DNA of 64,000 nt from a bacterium (lineage in GTDB: Bacteria > Planctomycetota > Planctomycetia > Planctomycetales > Planctomycetaceae), in contig WGMU01000021.1 of assembly GCA_016124895.1 (NCBI GenBank), forward strand, positions 1 through 64,000, read 5' to 3'. Every line of letters begins with the position of its first letter. The stretch's first letter is position 1. The position numbers and the translations under genes are program-made. The notes under the pieces are model-generated. The model saw only the letters and a list, made by a program, of their open reading frames with translations. It ran no database searches and was not told the DNA's origin. This document shows positions 29,712-40,700 of this stretch, one piece after another.

Positions 29712-31696
29712 CTCGCCTGGCCGTTCTCCCGCGAGGGCGGCCGGTACAGCAACGCCAGTCGGCCGGACTTCGCATCGAAGAGGTAAATCGCTCGGTCTCG
29801 GAAGGCCCGGCGGGCGGCTTTGACGGTGTCTTCTTCCGAAGTCTGGCGATCCATTGGCAGGCGGCCGATGAGGATGTCTGCTGTCAGTGACGGGTGATTG
29901 CTGACGTAGTCGAGGTGCCGGTCGTCGGGATCGTGCCGGACGAAAACGAGTGCCGGCCGTTCGGTGACACGGCGGGCCAGCAACTGCCGGAAGAACTCGT
30001 ACCGGCTGCGGGGAAACGCAAACTGGTTGATGCCGACCGTCAGTCGGGACGCCCCCCAGAACGGCGGCACGGCGATCTGATTCAGCGTGATCGACGTCGC
30101 CAGCAGCAGGATCCACCAGACGGCCAGCCAGCGACGCTCGGCGATGCGTGAATACCGGACGATCAGCAGCGTCGCAGCAGCAGCCAGCAGGCACCACAGT
30201 ACGCCAGACTCAAACACGTAGTGCCAGTGCAGAATGCCGTCGTACCAGTACGGAATATGCACGGCGTGCAGCGACAGAATGCCGGCCGGGACCAGCCACC
30301 AGCGCGCGTCCAGCAGGCGACGACCGCTCGCCAGAAAAATCATCAGGGACAGGACCAGAGCAACAATGCTGAGCGTCCACTGCCAGCTTGCCAGTAGGCG
30401 GTGCCAGACGTTGGTGGCGGCCAGGTTCGCGTCGAGATTCTGCGCCCAGCGATCGTAATTCTCGAGCACGCGGTCAGTCAGCAACGGCTGCGCACGTTCG
30501 ACGTTATGGAAGCCGAACATGTGCCGCGGGGTGAAGAGTTCCGTGTAAAGCTGGTAAGGCGTTTTCGTCACGCTGCCGGTGATTGCCAGATTCGCGGCGC
30601 CGAGCAATCCGAACGCAATCATCAGCGGCACCGCCATGCTGACCGCCACGGTGAGAACAATCTGGAGCTGCGTCCGTAACTGCCGCACACCCCAGACAAC
30701 GACCCACAGTCCGCAGGGCAGAGCGAACCCAGCAGCAGTCATCGGGCGACAGAGCGCCGCGAAGCCGAGGCCGGCTCCGGCGAGAACTGCTGGCACGACG
30801 ACCGCTATCGGCTGAGTCGTCCGCAGTCGACGCAGCAGCTTCAGGAACTGCCACAGGAACAGGCCGAGGCCGACCAGCGTGGGCTGGTGAGCCAGCAGCG
30901 TGTTGCCGAACAGATCGATGCCCGGCGACAGGGCGACCAGCAGCCCGGCGATGAGGCCGACGCCGTTGCACGCGAGTTCGCGCCCGCACAGAAACACGAA
31001 GACGCACGTCAGTACGGTCGCCGCCCACGCTCCGGCGTAGACATTACCCGCCGCGAGAAACGGAGCGAACCAGGCTCCCGTACCAGGAAAGTAGCGGCTG
31101 GCAAACCGGCCCTCATTGAGCACGTGCATCTGATCAAACAGCCGCGGCACGTCCGGGTGACTCGGGAACGAGAAACGCCCCGCGAGATACGTCTCCGCCT
31201 GAAACAGGTAACTGAACTCGTCGTGAAACCCCGGCGGCAGTTCAGCGAACGTTTTCTCTGTGCCATTGATTTCGGTCGACGCGACGCGCAGGCAGGCTGC
31301 AGCCGAAACCGCAGCAACGATCAGCACTCCGATCAGAGTTCGGAACCGGCGACTCCAGCGGCTTCTGCGATCTTCGCCCGCTGAGAAATCAATTGGACCC
31401 TCGGCCAGCCAGCCCTCGATCGCCCGCAGCCAGGCAGGCGAGTGCGCGAGGATCGGCGAACGCAGCAACCAGAACAGCGGCAGCAGCAGAAACAGAATCG
31501 CGAAGGGTGAGCTGTCGACGTTCATATCGAACAGCCAGTCGACGGCACCACCTTCAAGCTGCTGCCAGCGCTGCGACTCCGCCCAGAGGATCAGACCGCA
31601 GCAGAGAATCAGCCCAATCAACAGCCCCAGACCGACGCGTCTTCGCAGCCGCCGATCCTGATCAGGCAAGGTTTCCTGGTCGACATCCGCCGTCAC
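29708..31696 (-). CDS. GT-C fold multi-membrane-span protein (PMT/ArnT-like)
   Basis: About 662 residues with some ten to twelve hydrophobic segments, for example VGLGLLIGLILCCGLILWA, FAILFLLLPLFWLL and TVLTCVFVFLCG. The first external loop carries PPGFHDEFSYLFQAETYLAG, the DE-containing loop typical of GT-C lipid-linked-sugar transferases; a long soluble tail follows the last span. The likely role is transfer of a sugar from a polyprenyl carrier to a glycan or protein. The start is a GTG at 31696 in a GTGA overlap with the sulfatase stop; the ATG at 31762 would overlap that gene by 70 bp and adds residues without a family match. Coupling to a sulfatase suggests a shared glycan, which is inference. 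Confidence 0.75.
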   Translation of the reverse strand: MTADVDQETLPDQDRRLRRRVGLGLLIGLILCCGLILWAESQRWQQLEGGAVDWLFDMNVDSSPFAILFLLLPLFWLLRSPILAHSPAWLRAIEGWLAEGPIDFSAGEDRRSRWSRRFRTLIGVLIVAAVSAAACLRVASTEINGTEKTFAELPPGFHDEFSYLFQAETYLAGRFSFPSHPDVPRLFDQMHVLNEGRFASRYFPGTGAWFAPFLAAGNVYAGAWAATVLTCVFVFLCGRELACNGVGLIAGLLVALSPGIDLFGNTLLAHQPTLVGLGLFLWQFLKLLRRLRTTQPIAVVVPAVLAGAGLGFAALCRPMTAAGFALPCGLWVVVWGVRQLRTQLQIVLTVAVSMAVPLMIAFGLLGAANLAITGSVTKTPYQLYTELFTPRHMFGFHNVERAQPLLTDRVLENYDRWAQNLDANLAATNVWHRLLASWQWTLSIVALVLSLMIFLASGRRLLDARWWLVPAGILSLHAVHIPYWYDGILHWHYVFESGVLWCLLAAAATLLIVRYSRIAERRWLAVWWILLLATSITLNQIAVPPFWGASRLTVGINQFAFPRSRYEFFRQLLARRVTERPALVFVRHDPDDRHLDYVSNHPSLTADILIGRLPMDRQTSEEDTVKAARRAFRDRAIYLFDAKSGRLALLYRPPSRENGQAS

Positions 31697-33177
31697 GATT
31701 TCGCTGCTCCGACTGCTCGACGCTTTTGCGGAGCACGCTGTTGTCGTGGCCGCTGCTTCCACTGCGACGCCTTTTCGGGATCGTAATCCCGGTTCGGCGT
31801 CGGCATGTTTGCTCCGACTCGATCTCGCCAGGCAGCGAGTTCCTGCTGCAGCGCTTTGGCAACTTCCGGTCGCTCGGCCGCGAGATTGTGCTTCTCGCTC
31901 AGGTCGCGCTTCAGGTCGTAAAGCTCGACGTGGCCGTCGTCGAAGTACTCGATCAGCTTCAGATCGCCCTTGCGGATCGCACCGGCCGGCGTGGTGTGGT
32001 GATAGTGCGGGTAGTGCCAGAACAGCGACCGGGCCGACAACTCACCACGTTGAGTCAGCAGCGGCACAAGGCTCACGCCGTCGAGCCGGTTCGTCAGAGC
32101 GGACTTTGTCTCCGGCCCGGCGAGTTCGACGAATGTCGGCAGCAGATCAACGCTCGACACCGGAACGTGACATTCGGCGCCGGCCGGAACGTGCCCCGGC
32201 CAGCGGACAATCAGCGGCTCACGAATGCCGCCTTCGTGCAGCGAACCTTTCTCGTCCCGCAGCGGCATGTTGACCATCACTGGCCCGCCCTGCTTATCGA
32301 ACCGCTGATACAGCCCGCCGTTATCCGAAAAGAAAACGAGCAGCGTGTCGTCGGCAAGCTGCAGTTCGTCGAGCTTCGCCATAATGCGGCCGAGGCTCTG
32401 ATCGATGTGCTCGACCATCGCTGCATAAACGGGATTGTTGACTCGGCCCGGCGGTTTCGGCTGCTTCTGCTCGTACTTCGTGATCAGTTCCTGCTTCGCT
32501 TCCAGCGGGATATGCACAGCGTAATGTGGCAGGTAGAGCAGGAACGGTTCGTCGCGGTGTTTCTCGATAAACTTTTCCGCATGATCAGTCAGCACGTCGG
32601 CGAGGTACGCGCCGTCTTCGATCTCTTCCGGCGGCGTCGTCCGGAAGTTCGGGAAAAAGTGTCGGCCGCCAGTGACCAGCATCTCATCGAAACCCTGACT
32701 GTCCGGGTTGTGCGTCGCTCCGCCGAGGTGCCACTTGCCGAACGCCGCCGACACGTAACCGGCCGGTTTGAGTGCTTCCGCGATCGTCACTTCCGAGTAC
32801 GGCAGTTCCTGGTTGAACTTCGGTACGGCGAGCTTCTCCCACGGACGCCAGTGGCCGGGAATAAAGTCGGTCAGGTTCACTGTCGCCGGGTACCGCCCCG
32901 TCATGATGCTGGCTCGAGTCGGCGAGCAGACCGGGCAGGCGGCGTACGCGTCGGTGAACCTCATCCCCTGTCGAGCCAGCCGGTCGATGTTCGGCGTTTC
33001 GTGAAACGGGTTGCCGTAACAGGCCGGATCGATCCAGCCCATATCGTCGACAAGAAACAGCACGATGTTCGGTGACCGGTTCAATCGAGTCGCCGGCTCG
33101 GCGCAGCTCGCTGCGATAGCACCGGGGCCGCTCAGAATGGAAACGAGTAGAAGTGTTTTGACAAGGTTGCGAGTCAT
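31693..33177 (-). CDS. secreted Cys-type sulfatase
   Basis: A 494-residue arylsulfatase-family enzyme that hydrolyses sulfate esters, probably of polysaccharides. After a signal peptide (MTRNLVKTLLLVSILSG...) the metal-site motif NIVLFLVDDMGW is at 37-48. The formylglycine motif is Cys84 in CPVCSPTRASIMTGRYP, so it needs a sulfatase-maturing enzyme not seen in this window. AAFGKWHLGG carries the conserved Lys-His pair, and LVFFSDNGG the later Asp-Asn metal ligands. A basic RPRQQRAPQKRRA tail ends the protein. Marine planctomycetes carry many such genes. It is translationally coupled to the GT-C gene. Confidence 0.94.
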   Translation of the reverse strand: MTRNLVKTLLLVSILSGPGAIAASCAEPATRLNRSPNIVLFLVDDMGWIDPACYGNPFHETPNIDRLARQGMRFTDAYAACPVCSPTRASIMTGRYPATVNLTDFIPGHWRPWEKLAVPKFNQELPYSEVTIAEALKPAGYVSAAFGKWHLGGATHNPDSQGFDEMLVTGGRHFFPNFRTTPPEEIEDGAYLADVLTDHAEKFIEKHRDEPFLLYLPHYAVHIPLEAKQELITKYEQKQPKPPGRVNNPVYAAMVEHIDQSLGRIMAKLDELQLADDTLLVFFSDNGGLYQRFDKQGGPVMVNMPLRDEKGSLHEGGIREPLIVRWPGHVPAGAECHVPVSSVDLLPTFVELAGPETKSALTNRLDGVSLVPLLTQRGELSARSLFWHYPHYHHTTPAGAIRKGDLKLIEYFDDGHVELYDLKRDLSEKHNLAAERPEVAKALQQELAAWRDRVGANMPTPNRDYDPEKASQWKQRPRQQRAPQKRRAVGAAKS

Positions 33178-33431: not shown

Positions 33432-36400
33432 ATGTCTCACGATCGTCGACCGTCTGAGGTGCCGGACGAAAATCACGACGGACGGACGCTCGTCCTGCTG
33501 GGAGCCGCCGGGGTGACAGGTCTCAGCGTTTTGATCGCTGGTGTGTACGGTCTGCTGGTGCTGCTCGGAGGGAATTCGAACTCCAAACTCAAACCTGCAC
33601 CACCCACGCTGGCCAGTGTCGATTCTGCTGCGTCGAGCGACTCGGACGTCGCCGTTGCCGAGTCGGCGGCCGCGCAGGATTCGCCGCGCCAGCCCGTTGA
33701 TGATCGGGAGATTGCTGCTGCAGAAAAATCCATCGCCGTGCCAGTCGTCACGAAGCCGGCTCCGGCCCAGCCAGCAGGTGCTATTGCTTCTGAGGCAACT
33801 CGTTCTGCTGAGTCGACGCGGCCAGCAGAAACTGCTGGTGCGAGTGAAACGGCGATCCCTGTCGAGACCGCTGCTGCCACCGCTGCTGATTCCAGAGAAG
33901 TCGCTGTGGCAGCGACCACTGCTCGCCCGAAAGCCGGTTCTGTCGCCGACCGCAGCTCGGTCCAGGCAACGGCAGACGTCGCGAGCTTCGAACCGACGCG
34001 CAAAGGCGAGCCGCTCGTTTATCACTGGGTGCCCGGCGAAATTCACGGTTACTCGATCAAGCTGACGGCGGAGCAGAATGGGCAGAAGCAGACGACGACA
34101 GGGAATGTCGAGCTGACCGTCAACTCGGGAAAGAAGACGACAGGCGACGATCAGAAGCCCGAAGACTCGAAGCCGGAAACGGGTACCGGTACTGCCTTCG
34201 TTGTTCGCTCGGATGGCTGGCTGGTGACCTGTGCTCACGTCGTACAGGGAGCGAGCAACATCGCCGTCATACTTGGCGGAACGGAATACGAAGCCGAAGT
34301 GGCAGCGAAGGATCCCGACAATGATCTCGCTCTGCTGCGTGTCAGGGCGAACGGGCTCTTGCCGGTCCCGCTGGCGGATGGCAACGCGGTTAAGCTCGGG
34401 CAGGATGTTCGCGCGGTCGGCTTTCCACTGACGACTGTGCTGGGAGAAGGCGTCAAAGTGACGCGAGGTTCGCTGTCCGGCATCCTGCAGGTTGACGCCG
34501 GCAAGCGATATCAGATCGACGCGGCGATCAATCCGGGCAACAGTGGCGGTCCGGTCGTCGACGAACGCGGCGCCGTCGTCGGCGTTGCCAGTTCGCGACT
34601 GGTCGGGCTCGAACTGACCCGGCTGGGCTTCTGCGTCCCCTGCGAACTGGTCAGCGAGTTTCTGAAGCAGCACAACGTGACTCCGGAAGGAACGCCGGCC
34701 GCGGCGCCGCTCGACGGCCCGGCACTCGCAGAAACGGTGTCGCGTGGTGTCGGCCTCGTCCGCGTCACCATCAATCCTTTGAAAGCGAGTGGCGAACTGT
34801 TCGCGCTCTCGACCAGTGGCAGTTTCCGAACCGAGCGACCGCGCAACGCCGGCGGCTTTATGCTGCCGATGATTCCCGACTCCAGCTTCGACCGCGGGGC
34901 AGTCACCGTCGACGCGAACGGACATCGTGAATCGTTCGAGGCTCCGGAGCAGCTTCCGTTTCTGGCCGGACCGATGGCACTGCTGACGGTTCATCCGCTC
35001 GATCAGTCCGGCCGGGATGCCTGGACCGTGCGTGAACGGATCAAAGTTGTCGTGCAGAAACGCAACAATGGTCCGGGCGGCTTCCCGATTCCGCGTATTC
35101 CGCGGCCGAGGATGCCGCGTCCATTTGGCGGACCGCGTGTCGGCAGCCCGTTTGATCCACAGGTCGTTAAGGAACTCGACGCCGTCGAAGTTCACCAGTA
35201 CCGGATCAAGTCGGATTCAGACGATCTGGTCGTGCTTGAGAAGACGTTCAGCCTGACGACGCTCGATGACGACAACCGGCCGTACTTCCGCATCTCCGGC
35301 ACCGGCGAGGTCACTTTCAGCCGCAAGAGTGGCCTGATCGAAAAATTTACGCTGGACCATCGCTTCGAGCAGAACAGCGAGAACGAACAGACGCGAATTC
35401 CCGTGCGGATCGAAGTTCAACACGAGGCGCCGGAAATTGTTGCTCAGATCAAACGCGAAGCCGCTGTCCGTCTGGCTGAGCTGCAGTTCAAACAGCAGCA
35501 GGACGCCGCCGAGAAGGCCGCACAACCGGCTGGCGGGAAACTCGATGCACTGCTCGAAACAATTCGCAACCCGAAGGATCAGGTTCAGAAGATCCGATTG
35601 CCGCAGACAATTGCGGAGCTTGAAAAGATCGCCGTCGAGCCAGACCGACAGGCAGAAATCGAAGCCGTCCTGCTCGAACAACTGGCCGATTCCAATCAGC
35701 AGGTGGCCGGAGCGGCGGCGGCGGCGCTCAGAGTCTGGGGCTCGAAAGCTTCGGTCGAACCGCTGATCGCGCGACTCGGCGATGGCAACGAGTTTGCTGT
35801 TGTGCGCGGCGTTTGTGGCACTCTGGCAGTCCTCGGCGATCAGCAAGCCGCCGAACCACTCGTCAAACTGCTCAGCAATCTGTCCGCTCAGCTTGCGGCG
35901 AAAGACGCGCTGATCAAACTCGGGCCGCTGTCCGAGGATGCAACGCTCGAACTTCTGTCCGAAAACGACAACCGCAAAGTACAACTGGCCTGCGAGATCC
36001 TGCAGAAGGTCGGCGGATCGAAGTCCATCAAGCCGCTCGAACTGATCGCCAGCGGCGACGACTTCTTTCGCAAGACGTTCGCAAAGCGAGCGCTCGACGA
36101 CGTCCGCAATCGCGCCGCTGATGAACAGGCCGTTGCGGCCGCGCAGAACAATGCCGACGCCGCTGGTCTTACGCCGCAACACCTTGCCGTGCAGCGACTG
36201 CTTGAGTCACTCAGGACTGCAGACAATTCATTTACACGCCACCAGACGCTTTCGGAACTCGGCAAACTGCCGCGCATTGACGCGCTGCAGCCCGAAGTCG
36301 AAACACTGTTGCTCAGCCAGTTGGCTGGCGGCGAAAACTCACTGAAGCATCCGACTCTCGGAGCCTTGAGGAACTGGGCGTCTGAGAAGAGCATCGGCCC

Positions 36401-36773
36401 GGTGCTGGCGATCATCGTCGACCCCGCACAGGCAGGGCTGCAGCCGGTCGCTGTTGAAGCACTCAAGCCGCTCGCGACAAAAGCCGTCGGCGACCGGATT
36501 GTTGAACAGGCTGGCGAGCAGCCACCGAGCTACGCGCTGCGGCAACTCATCGAGCAGGCCGGACTGTCAGAAACCGGCGAGCTGGCACTCGGCCAACTGG
36601 CAACGCTCGACGACAACCTCGAACGCAACGCCCTGATCGACCTGCTCGGATCGATCGGCTCCCCGGCCAGCCTGCCACTGCTCGACAGCCTGTCACAATC
36701 GCCGAAACCGACGACAAGGCTCTACGCCGCCACAATTGCCGCCACGAAGATTCGACTGCGACACGGCCTGTAG
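33432..36773 (+). CDS. membrane-anchored trypsin-like protease with C-terminal HEAT repeats
   Basis: A 1113-residue protein. A short cytoplasmic head is followed by one transmembrane helix (VLLGAAGVTGLSVLIAGVYGL, about 19-43). An Ala/Glu/Thr-rich linker runs to about 190. The S1C/trypsin-2 protease domain (about 250-415) has the triad His in TCAHVV, Asp in DPDNDLALLRV and Ser in NPGNSGGPVV near 369. A mixed region of unknown fold spans about 440-680 and includes a Pro/Arg-rich patch (GFPIPRIPRPRMP). HEAT/Armadillo repeats fill about 740-1110, for example AAAAALRVWGSKASVEPLIA. No PDZ domain follows the protease, unlike HtrA. A quality-control or regulatory protease on the outer side of the membrane seems likely. 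Confidence 0.85.
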   Translation: MSHDRRPSEVPDENHDGRTLVLLGAAGVTGLSVLIAGVYGLLVLLGGNSNSKLKPAPPTLASVDSAASSDSDVAVAESAAAQDSPRQPVDDREIAAAEKSIAVPVVTKPAPAQPAGAIASEATRSAESTRPAETAGASETAIPVETAAATAADSREVAVAATTARPKAGSVADRSSVQATADVASFEPTRKGEPLVYHWVPGEIHGYSIKLTAEQNGQKQTTTGNVELTVNSGKKTTGDDQKPEDSKPETGTGTAFVVRSDGWLVTCAHVVQGASNIAVILGGTEYEAEVAAKDPDNDLALLRVRANGLLPVPLADGNAVKLGQDVRAVGFPLTTVLGEGVKVTRGSLSGILQVDAGKRYQIDAAINPGNSGGPVVDERGAVVGVASSRLVGLELTRLGFCVPCELVSEFLKQHNVTPEGTPAAAPLDGPALAETVSRGVGLVRVTINPLKASGELFALSTSGSFRTERPRNAGGFMLPMIPDSSFDRGAVTVDANGHRESFEAPEQLPFLAGPMALLTVHPLDQSGRDAWTVRERIKVVVQKRNNGPGGFPIPRIPRPRMPRPFGGPRVGSPFDPQVVKELDAVEVHQYRIKSDSDDLVVLEKTFSLTTLDDDNRPYFRISGTGEVTFSRKSGLIEKFTLDHRFEQNSENEQTRIPVRIEVQHEAPEIVAQIKREAAVRLAELQFKQQQDAAEKAAQPAGGKLDALLETIRNPKDQVQKIRLPQTIAELEKIAVEPDRQAEIEAVLLEQLADSNQQVAGAAAAALRVWGSKASVEPLIARLGDGNEFAVVRGVCGTLAVLGDQQAAEPLVKLLSNLSAQLAAKDALIKLGPLSEDATLELLSENDNRKVQLACEILQKVGGSKSIKPLELIASGDDFFRKTFAKRALDDVRNRAADEQAVAAAQNNADAAGLTPQHLAVQRLLESLRTADNSFTRHQTLSELGKLPRIDALQPEVETLLLSQLAGGENSLKHPTLGALRNWASEKSIGPVLAIIVDPAQAGLQPVAVEALKPLATKAVGDRIVEQAGEQPPSYALRQLIEQAGLSETGELALGQLATLDDNLERNALIDLLGSIGSPASLPLLDSLSQSPKPTTRLYAATIAATKIRLRHGL

Positions 36774-36899: not shown

Positions 36900-37937
36900 T
36901 CATCGATCCTTGAAGCCAGTCCCGCGTGTCTTCGTCTGAATCCGACAGAGATACATATCGGATGTCAGATACAGCACCGAGCCGTCGTTGCCCCAGGCGA
37001 CGTTGGCGATTCGTTCGCCCGTGACAATGCGGCCCAGCAGTTCGCCCTTCGGCGAGAGCACCAGCACGCCGCCCGGCCCGGTGGCAAATACGTTTCCATG
37101 AACGTCGACCTTCAGCCCGTCGCCGCCGCCTTTCGGAATGCGATCGTCCTTTGAGGAATCGAAGAACGGTTTCGGTGTTCCGAGATTGCCCTCCGCATCA
37201 ACAGGAAAGGCTCGCCAGACAGGGTCGCTGCCGTCGCTGCTGGCGACGTACAGAATCGACTCGTCCGGAGAAAATCCGATGCCGTTTGGCCGGGAGATCT
37301 CGCGGCACTGCAGCGTGACGGTGCCATCCGGTTCGAGCCGAAAGACGCCGCAGAAGTCGATCTCGCGCTGCGGGTCGTTCTCGCGCTGTGGCAGACCGTA
37401 AATCGGATCGGTGAAGAAGATGTCGCCGTTGCTGCGAATCGCCAGATCGTTCGGACTATTGAGTCGCTTCCCGTTCCAGCGATCCGCAAGCGTCATCTTG
37501 CCTCCGCCCGCAGTCAGCACCGAGATGCGCCGGTCGCCATGCTCACACAGCACCAGCCGGCCCAGCCTGTCGAGTGCCAGTCCATTGCTGCCCGGTTCCC
37601 GGCCGTAGTCAGCGACACCGGTGTAGCCGGCCGGTTTCATAAAGACTGAAGCTCCAACGCCTTCCTGCCACTTCATCACGACGTTGTGCGGGATGTCCGA
37701 AAAGAGAACGAAGCCGCCGAACCGGTTCTCTTTTTCCGGAATCCAGACCGGGCCTTCCGACCAGTCGAAGCCGCCGCAAAGCACCTCGATGACGGCGTCT
37801 TTGCCGATCAGCCTGTCGAGTTCGGTACTGAATCGGTCAACGTGTCCGATGTGCGGAAAGTTGGTTGTGTTCTGCGCGATGGAAACGCGCGGCTGGATCG
37901 CGAGCAGCGTTGCAGTCAGAAGGACAACGATTCTCAT
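36900..37937 (-). CDS. exported SMP-30/gluconolactonase-type beta-propeller
   Basis: A 345-residue protein of the SMP-30/gluconolactonase/LRE family. MRIVVLLTATLLAIQPRVSIA is a signal peptide. Family marks are CGGFDWSEGPVWIPEKENRF (metal-ligand Glu in EGP), NGLALDRLGRLVLCEHGDRR, LNSPNDLAIRSNGDIFFTDPIYG (Asn and Asp ligands) and RPNGIGFSPDESILYVASSD. It probably opens sugar lactones in the periplasm. GGAGAA lies 7 bases upstream of the ATG at 37937, and the longer open frame to 38072 lacks family sequence. It is divergent from the PH-domain gene with a 101-bp shared promoter gap. Confidence 0.9.
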   Translation of the reverse strand: MRIVVLLTATLLAIQPRVSIAQNTTNFPHIGHVDRFSTELDRLIGKDAVIEVLCGGFDWSEGPVWIPEKENRFGGFVLFSDIPHNVVMKWQEGVGASVFMKPAGYTGVADYGREPGSNGLALDRLGRLVLCEHGDRRISVLTAGGGKMTLADRWNGKRLNSPNDLAIRSNGDIFFTDPIYGLPQRENDPQREIDFCGVFRLEPDGTVTLQCREISRPNGIGFSPDESILYVASSDGSDPVWRAFPVDAEGNLGTPKPFFDSSKDDRIPKGGGDGLKVDVHGNVFATGPGGVLVLSPKGELLGRIVTGERIANVAWGNDGSVLYLTSDMYLCRIQTKTRGTGFKDR

Positions 37938-38038
37938 GCGGGATTCTCCAGTGCGTCCGGAAGTCTGATACGATCTCTCGACGTTCGACGACTTCGTTGA
38001 ATAATCCATTTCGTGGACCGAAAGAAGGGATCGCCAGC

Positions 38039-38413
38039 ATGGGATTTCTGAACGGGATGCTCGGCCTCTCATCTGAAGCCGACGCTGAAAAAGTCGAGAC
38101 GCAACTGCAGAAGATTCTGGTCGCTGGCGAGCAAGTCGAACTCGCCTATCAGCTTGTCAGGGATCTGACCGTGCTCACGAACCGGCGCATCATCCTCGTC
38201 GATAAACAGGGGCTCACCGGCCGGAAGACGGAATACGTCTCAATTCCTTACCGCAGCATCGTCAAGTTCTCGGTCGAGACAGCCGGGCACTTCGATCTCG
38301 ACGCCGACGTCACGCTGTGGCTGTCCGGACACACGGATCCCGTCAAACTCGAACTGCGGCGCAGCGGTGACGTCTCGGAACTCGTACGGCTGATCGCCAG
38401 TCATGCGTGCTGA
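38039..38413 (+). CDS. bacterial PH-domain protein
   Basis: A 124-residue soluble protein with a pleckstrin-homology-like fold as in the bacterial PH (bPH, YvbH-like) families. After a short helix (MGFLNGMLGLSSEADAEKVE) comes AYQLVRDLTVLTNRRIILVD, the signature strand pair, then YVSIPYRSIVKFSVETAGHFD and a final helix VSELVRLIASHAC. Similar small proteins are widespread; their ligand is unknown. AAGAAGGGA precedes the ATG at the expected distance. The gene is short, monocistronic and convergent with ftsH (49-bp gap without a hairpin). Confidence 0.8.
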   Translation: MGFLNGMLGLSSEADAEKVETQLQKILVAGEQVELAYQLVRDLTVLTNRRIILVDKQGLTGRKTEYVSIPYRSIVKFSVETAGHFDLDADVTLWLSGHTDPVKLELRRSGDVSELVRLIASHAC

Positions 38414-38462: not shown

Positions 38463-40499
38463 TCAGTTCGCCTCTGCCGTGTCAGACGTCTCTGATGACT
38501 CAGACTCGTCAGGCAGTTCCGCGGCCGGAACATCTCCCTCTGCCTTGCCAGGCTTGGGATGAGTACCGGGCACGATCTGCGGACCGGGATGATGCTCGTC
38601 GAGGATCCGTTTCAGATGATCGGCATCCATCGTCTCGACCTCAAGCAACTCGCGCGTCATCTGTTCGAGAACAGCGCGACGGCGACGCAGGATATCGAGC
38701 ACCGTCGCATTGCACTCGTCGAGAATGCGTTTCACTTCGAGGTCGATCTCGCGGATCGTCTGCTCGGCATGGACCGGCTCGGCGGCAGTGGTCACTCCGA
38801 GAAACGGATTCGATCGCGACTCGCTGTAGTGAATGCGACCGAGCTTCGGACTCATGCCGAACTCCGTGACCATACGCCGCGCGATATCAGTCGCTCGCTG
38901 CAGATCGTTCTGCGCACCGACTGACGTCTCGTTGTAGACGACGTCTTCAGCCGCAATACCGCCCAGCAGGCAGCAGATCGAACTGACCAGCTCAGTCTGA
39001 GTCCGATTATGCCGTTCGCTGTCCGGCAGGTGCATCGTGTAGCCGAGTGCCTGACCTCGCGGAATGATGGAAATCTTGTGGACCGGGTCGGCATTCGGCA
39101 GGCTGCAGGCGATGAGCGCGTGCCCGCATTCGTGATACGCGGTGCGTTCTTTCTCTTCTTCGTCGAGCACTCGGCTCTGCTTTTCGAGGCCCGCGACAAC
39201 GCGTTCAAATCCCTCTTCAAATTCCTTCATCGTGACGCACTTCAGGCTCTTCCGAGCGGCCAGCAGCGCTGCCTCGTTCACCAGATTCGCGAGGTCCGCA
39301 CCGACAAAACCAGCGGTCAGCTTCGCAATCCGCGCCAGATCAACGGTCTCGTTGATTTTGACCTTCGTTGAGTGGACCTTGAGAATCCGCTCCCGACCTT
39401 TGATATCCGGCCGGTCGACGATGACGTGCCGGTCAAACCGCCCCGGACGCAGCAGCGCGGGGTCGAGCACGTCGATCCGGTTTGTTGCGGCCATCACAAT
39501 GACGCTCTGGTCGGAACCGAAACCGTCCATCTCGACCAGCAGTGCGTTGAGGGTCTGCTCGCGTTCGTCGTGACTGCCGGGCACTCCGGCGGAACGAGCC
39601 TTGCCGAGGGCGTCGAGTTCGTCGATGAAAATAATGCACGGCGATCGCTGAGCCGCCTGCTGGAACATATCACGCACGCGTGCCGCACCAACGCCGACGA
39701 ACATCTCGACGAAATCGGACCCCGACAGACTGACGAAGGGAACTCCCGCTTCACCGGCGACCGCTTTCGCCAGCAGCGTCTTACCGGTGCCTGGCGGGCC
39801 GACCAGCAGCACACCTTTCGGAATACGGCCACCGAGTGCCTGGTACTTGCCCGGAGACTTCAGAAACTCGACGACTTCCTTGAGTTCTTCAACGGCTTCG
39901 TCGATGCCTGCCACATCGTCAAACGTGATGCCCAGATCGTCCTGAGCGTAAACCTTGCCGCGACTCCGCCCGAATGCGAGCGCCGATCCGGCGCCCCCCA
40001 TGCGGCGCAGCATCAGGATGAACAGCAGCACGAACGGGGCGGCAATCAGCAGCAGCAGGATGTAGGCATCCCAGTTGGAGGGTCCGGCTTCAAACTCGAA
40101 GCCGATGCCTTTCTTCTCCAGCAGTTCGCAGAGAGATTCGCGCGCTTCGGAGTGCATTGAACCAGCGGGGATCTGAAATGTCTGCGGCTTGATCTTCGGT
40201 TCGGAACCGTCCTCAGGCACCGGCTGGTCCTGCCAAGTGATCGAGTTCAGCCGGAACAGCAGTTCGTGGACGTTGGTCGGATTGAGTTCGCCCGACTCGA
40301 CCTGTTTCTTGAACTCGCTGTAGCTGACGACTTTCGCGCTGCTGCGACCCGAGATCAGCGGGTAGAAGACCAGCAGAATTGTCGCGACGATCAGCAGGAT
40401 CAGAATGATCCGATTCGACGCTGGCGACTCCGGCTTGCCCGGCGGCTTGCCCTTCTTCGGTTCTCCTGACTCCGGCGGAACCTGCTGCGAATCTGACAT
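38463..40499 (-). CDS. ftsH: ATP-dependent zinc metalloprotease FtsH
   Basis: A 678-residue inner-membrane AAA+ protease that degrades misfolded membrane and regulatory proteins. It has two transmembrane helices ([16 protein letters not shown] near 30-45 and [19 protein letters not shown] near 145-163) around a periplasmic segment. The AAA+ module has Walker A GPPGTGKT, Walker [10 protein letters not shown] and the [21 protein letters not shown]. The M41 zinc site reads HECGH (HEXXH) with the third ligand in the [13 protein letters not shown] region. The Met at 40499 ([10 protein letters not shown]) is preferred over the one at 40523. The promoter should lie in the 200-bp gap after the phosphofructokinase gene. 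Confidence 0.97.
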
Positions 40500-40700
40500 G
40501 CGGCGCTCATTCTGCAAAATCAATAGCGGACGTCTGTCCCGCGGGTTCTTTGAGCAAACTACCGGGACGCCTCTCGGCGAACTCTACGACAAGGCAGTTC
40601 CCGACCGACAGGCAAATTCTGGATTTCCGGGATTGGACAGTCGCCGTATCGTCGAGGTCGGCCTGCGCAGATTTGTGTCGGCCTGAACAAGACCGGCAGC

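Follow-up and report, generated by a model that had tools for sequence, protein, structure and literature searches.

The gene analysed here lies in a window of 64,000 nucleotides (the whole stretch of DNA under study) and appears to encode an envelope protease that is tethered to the membrane and built from a circularly permuted S1C (HtrA-type) protease, set into a turn between two strands of an extracytoplasmic beta domain and controlled by this host domain, a reading to which we give a probability of roughly 60%. The architecture is well supported, and the mechanism of control is what we would deduce from it. The textbook case of PDZ-controlled quality control in the envelope is the HtrA family. 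If the reading is true, an active core has been kept whilst its chain was re-ordered inside another domain, which amounts to a natural experiment on control by loop LA and PDZ and points to a novel mode of control for a protease of the cell envelope. As Pfam shows a trypsin-like domain and HEAT repeats only, a domain annotation would overlook the permutation as well as the splitting of the beta domain.

Layout of the protein and its gene

The open reading frame begins with ATG and carries a GGAG motif 7 bases upstream, seen by eye; its features are collected in Table 1. The sequence observations of a preliminary description, made from the DNA letters alone, are confirmed, and its interpretation is partly supported. 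As it had described, a hydrophobic 19-mer, the putative membrane tether, is followed by an Ala-rich linker, and the S1C protease (Pfam Trypsin_2 at residues 253-385, E 3.8e-31) retains its whole triad and lies ahead of C-terminal HEAT repeats (HEAT_2 at residues 745-822, E 1.6e-14), whilst no PDZ family was matched in the protein by Pfam at E≤1; this domain order is indeed unlike that of HtrA/DegP. The HEAT units may be read as an alpha solenoid from the HEAT_2 match, which is over its cut-off, together with a run of predicted helices from about residue 700 on (a single-sequence prediction of low confidence, mean pLDDT 64). NCBIfam models for DegP, DegQ, DegS and HtrA match within residues 234-415, around the core only, and those for MamE (158-442) and MamO (251-424) also match, all of them far below their cut-offs.

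With the S1C proteases (HtrA, DegP, DegQ, DegS, Deg1 and HtrA1) the protein shares a trypsin-like catalytic core, the His-Asp-Ser triad and the GNSGG motif, here GNSGGP. It differs from them in that the protease is placed inside another domain, with a core that begins at the strand which ranks second in ordinary HtrA, and in two features of the full-length HtrA/DegP protein: a C-terminal PDZ domain was not found in the window protein, and the N-terminal helix and first strand appear to lie behind the core and not ahead of it, as read from the family profile, the window sequence by itself being weak (rank 6). The plant HtrA protease Deg5 is likewise an S1C protease without PDZ, but the accessible part of its description (PMC3640471) reports trimers in whose interface the N-terminal helix lies, and mentions no host domain. 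Neither an account of the architecture, which would have told against the preliminary description had it been a wide one under a characterised name, nor one of a natural permuted trypsin-fold protease was found in the titles and abstract openings of open-access papers among the matches listed. The flanking genes, at 31693-33177, 36900-38072 and 38463-40523, are all on the (-) strand, so the protease gene appears to stand alone; by eye they look like a sulfatase, an SMP-30/gluconolactonase-like gene and an FtsH-type protease, respectively.

Table 1. Positions of the features of the protease gene (window numbering) and of genes adjoining short protease genes in relatives (numbering of each locus)
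Feature	Position	Strand	Remarks
Whole coding sequence	33432..36773	+	1113 aa; GGAG motif upstream
Transmembrane anchor, residues 20-38	33489..33545	+	Hydropathy maximum
Ala/Pro/Ser/Thr/Glu-rich linker, residues 43-193	33558..34010	+	25.2% Ala (12.9% in the whole 1113-aa protein)
Host beta domain, first part, residues 193-230	34008..34121	+	A2 model positions 3-48
S1C protease core, residues 250-416	34179..34679	+	Pfam Trypsin_2; VIA-align to HtrA-type chains
Catalytic His269	34236..34238	+	
Catalytic Asp298	34323..34325	+	
Catalytic Ser371 in GNSGGP	34542..34544	+	
Putative permuted N-terminal helix and first strand of the protease, residues 427-448, behind the core	34710..34775	+	Profile scans; AlphaFold
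Host beta domain, second part, residues 455-665 (the "middle region")	34794..35426	+	A2 model positions 48-231
HEAT-repeat alpha solenoid (predicted), residues about 700-1113	35529..36770	+	Pfam HEAT_2; low-confidence helical model
Secreted-looking SHD1 + WD40 gene directly adjoining short protease gene, same strand	L045:1863-3080	+	
Secreted-looking SHD1 + WD40 gene directly adjoining short protease gene, same strand	L081:5759-6988	-	
Secreted-looking SHD1 + WD40 gene directly adjoining short protease gene, same strand	L091:5598-6818	-	
Secreted-looking SHD1 + WD40 gene directly adjoining short protease gene, same strand	L093:5680-7008	-	

A beta domain interrupted by the protease

A contig search with the single window protein gave two distant matches only, and relatives were therefore searched in whole genomes. 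In an alignment of the window protein with eight protease-bearing proteins from six relatives' genomes and the protease-free protein L048, the strands that flank the protease in the window protein are joined directly in L048. A profile of the joined beta domain (A2, built without L047 of genome G021, which ends at a contig edge) matched at least 62 of 297 genomes of the class, this and the other counts of the search being lower bounds because only the first few candidates per genome were scored (G288 and G281, for example, were not fetched). A script classed 72 distinct proteins as 33 inserted, 35 without protease and four with a protease elsewhere; one of these four, L100, whose first part was unmatched by the profile, looks inserted on visual inspection and brings the inserted set to 34 proteins.

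One match spans nearly the whole A2 model in many of the unbroken copies, and a protease-free protein covers it end to end, whilst in broken copies the match falls into separate pieces: of the 33 inserted proteins, 30 have the end of the first match at model position 45-51 and three at 55-61, and matching resumes at 37-51 in 25 of them and at 62-87 in eight, which are the more distant ones. At this turn, four extra residues were counted in 27 of the 28 measurable protease-free proteins (of 35) and none in the other, and the three ordinary-order proteins described below have 4, 4 and 6, whereas 22 of the 26 measurable inserted proteins (of 34) have 211-228. The values of 0 or -1 in the remaining four (L045, L072, L076 and L083) are measuring artefacts: in each, a match runs across the turn, although more than 200 residues separate the two pieces. 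Since the beta domain is unbroken in protease-free relatives and the inserted proteins carry 211-228 extra residues at one turn, we take the beta domain to be the host and the protease the insert. At the level of sequence comparison, we thus show that other proteins carry the beta domain without a break and that the protease sits at one of its turns.

The region behind the protease, which the preliminary description had set apart as an unknown middle region, does exist in the sequence, but it makes up one half of this split beta domain and is not a free-standing unit. Structure prediction, which had been named as a way to look into it, gave pLDDT 78-85 for the last strands of the beta domain and values below 50 for many other parts. 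We consider it distinctly unlikely that the protein is a simple HtrA-like protease with an unrelated middle domain behind it and, after that, HEAT repeats that dock substrates in place of PDZ, as had first been suggested: HEAT repeats are present, no PDZ was found and HEAT solenoids often bind proteins, but the middle region belongs to a domain that protease-free relatives carry in one piece, and HEAT_2 occurs (E≤0.001) in 16/34 inserted and 16/35 protease-free proteins, so that HEAT is tied to the beta domain and not to the protease. HEAT is optional in the architecture.

As to the nature of the host domain in the inserted-protease reading that we prefer, the joined beta-domain profile gave nothing convincing against solved structures (two chains, E 0.49 and 0.63). 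DUF6263 (PF19777) gave two weak matches below its cut-off of 26.7 bits, in L115 (24.1 bits over residues 173-266) and L074 (10.6 bits); it is matched at E≤0.001 in one of the 35 protease-free proteins (L115), and Pfam gave no match to it in the window protein at E≤1. In L101, L102 and L106 an S1C protease of ordinary order lies ahead of an unbroken beta domain, with HEAT after it in L101, the one scanned; this order is a second, separate way of joining protease and beta domain.

Chain order of the protease

Most of the ordinary S1C proteases that we collected have a segment of the helix-strand type ahead of the GxGxGF motif, whereas the inserted proteins have only a variable linker ahead of the core and a conserved stretch behind it, with the consensus LxGPxLAxxVxPxVALxxV. 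The same type of stretch occurs in three ordinary-order proteins, but ahead of the core: L101 has LTSAEIVARVEPSVAVVRG ahead of the core and L085 has LTGPEIARRVTPSVAYIRV behind it. For the ordinary N-terminal segment, a profile was built from 30 of 32 S1C ORFs (dropping L006, which has no motif, and L002, in which its score was too low). Its top match in the region from 5 residues before to 45 residues behind the core end was found in 24 of the 34 inserted proteins, whereas position-shuffled profiles averaged 3.7 and never exceeded 15 in 300 trials. Leave-one-out tests on the ordinary proteins placed the segment ahead of the core in 30/30 and behind it in 0/30, a control that is easier than it looks because the motif filter favours the expected pattern. 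With a profile of the three ordinary-order proteins of the same class, 26 of the 34 inserted proteins matched behind the core. We thus show by profile comparison that, across the family, the post-core segment matches the helix and first strand which precede the core in ordinary S1C proteases; the ordinary C-terminus would then be joined to the ordinary N-terminus by a linker of roughly 10-15 residues.

A first scan with a 25-residue profile gave no individually significant match. A nine-member joint scan ranked the post-core segment first of 196 windows (1.59 vs. -1.01). Among 200 column-permuted controls (mean -2.63), however, the highest score was 7.32, and we therefore put weight on the larger scan of 34 proteins. 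The segment of the window protein is itself among the weaker ones, with ranks 6 and 5 of 1127 positions in two profile scans, and the permutation in this protein therefore rests on its relatives and on the AlphaFold model.

That model covers residues 185-700 and used an alignment of 44 S1C cores, leaving out L001, which has the ordinary first strand. Within the core, ten-residue blocks have a mean pLDDT of 72-98, most above 85, and the linker ahead of it is mostly below 50. Behind the core a helix (429-437) and a strand (440-447) are predicted, the blocks of the helix and of most of the strand having pLDDT 87 and 85 and the last three residues of the strand falling in a block of mean 56; no row of the alignment has a letter at these positions, yet AlphaFold folds them with fair confidence. 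The model confidence and the sequence together suggest that strand 440-447 is the first strand of the protease barrel. VIA-align matched the model to HtrA-type chains with Z 20.8-23.1 and rmsd 1.8-4.1 Å over 152-174 residues (among the 50 matches listed), spanning model residues about 55-66 to 227-233 in all but one of these 50; Foldseek and VIA-align in effect probe the protease part only, and they align in sequence order and are thus blind to permutation.

An inserted but unpermuted protease, in which the post-core segment is a helix-strand linker or part of the beta domain, seems unlikely to us. Protease-free copies of the beta domain show 0-4 extra residues at this point (measured in 28 of 35); the larger set matches the ordinary N-terminal profile far above shuffled profiles, and a top match in the 60 residues ahead of the core was found in 0/34 inserted proteins. 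What such a reading has on its side is a short segment (about 20 residues) with weak single-sequence scores, only sixth in the window protein, and a nine-member scan that stays below its best control.

Partner domains, spread and a possible mode of control

Other partners matched at E≤0.001 are WD40 in 7/34 inserted proteins, and M56 in 7/35 and SHD1 in 6/35 protease-free ones. A kinase domain stands at the N-terminus of three inserted proteins (L097, L103 and L113), whose chains run from the protein kinase through a transmembrane segment to the beta domain with its inserted protease. L087, L092, L104, L107, L110, L111 and L112 are M56/BlaR1-type membrane peptidases whose C-terminal part is the beta domain, a fusion suggestive of a sensor role. 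BlaR1/M56 sensor peptidases and Ser/Thr kinases have the beta domain in common with the window protein but differ from it by another enzyme in the chain, and the seven M56 proteins are without an inserted protease. The beta domain would be a testable candidate for a sensor domain common to kinases and BlaR1-type peptidases.

A related gene is the neighbour of a short protease protein at five loci, which are spread over four genomes of one family. It holds SHD1 and WD40 in four of the five, these being the four examined (Table 1), and in L046 the neighbour is related by BLAST only. Amongst the 12 largest clusters of conserved neighbours, the next spans three loci and the rest two. Because the propeller is fused in some proteins and adjacent in others, it is likely a working partner of the protease. 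That the protease instead cuts its own chain, freeing the HEAT or WD40 part from the membrane, strikes us as very unlikely: a tether and a protease within one chain and the SHD1 + WD40-type gene beside the short form would be in keeping with it, but nothing noticed in the sequence points to self-cleavage, and no cleavage site or processing of the protein is known to us.

As for the suggestion that the protein is specific to planctomycetes, restriction to a lineage is likely from the searches within the phylum: besides the matches within the class, 18 of 392 genomes matched in a draw from the phylum, all 18 from the window's own class, with 354 of the non-matching genomes being of unread class. 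The genome of the window has 60 matches to PF07596, which we take to be a family typical of Planctomycetota, compared with none in 14 control genomes. In a protease tree made without two long outside rows, a branch with support 99/93 separates the 34 inserted cores from the 33 others (30 ordinary, 3 ordinary-order), and one change is needed; a quick tree that included the two rows needs two changes. In the beta-domain tree (3/72 rows left out for low coverage) the inserted group needs three changes, so this tree gives no demonstration of one origin. A single origin of the inserted protease fits the protease sequences, depending on the root and on the choice of rows. The triad is kept in 37/37 protease copies.

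In DegP, loop LA is located between the first and second strands. According to the accessible part of one account (PMC4339722), this loop (residues 38-79) shields the active centre in the resting state and is an inhibitory loop. The new chain ends of the permuted protease would lie at the site of LA, and from the opened loop both would run into neighbouring strands of the host beta domain; as the ends lie where LA would be, the beta domain would hold the protease at both ends of LA. It may have taken over as controller and may switch the protease on ligand binding or strain, whilst the C-terminal HEAT or WD40 part, or the neighbouring SHD1-WD40 protein, could bring in substrates or partners, and kinase-bearing relatives could signal the state of this module to the cytoplasm. 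PDZ is probably missing because the chain end on which it would sit runs on into the N-terminal helix and strand of the protease itself. A fuller picture, which we offer tentatively as one possibility, is that of a natural permuted chymotrypsin-fold protease that arose once in one class, was opened at LA and is clamped by a host sensor domain; its PDZ end would be closed and its control moved to the host domain, which in the kinase and M56 relatives would report to the cytoplasm.

By pattern match, a zinc-ribbon-like stretch with cysteine pairs lies ahead of the anchor in many relatives (L041-L044, L047 and others), whilst the window protein and L040 are without it.
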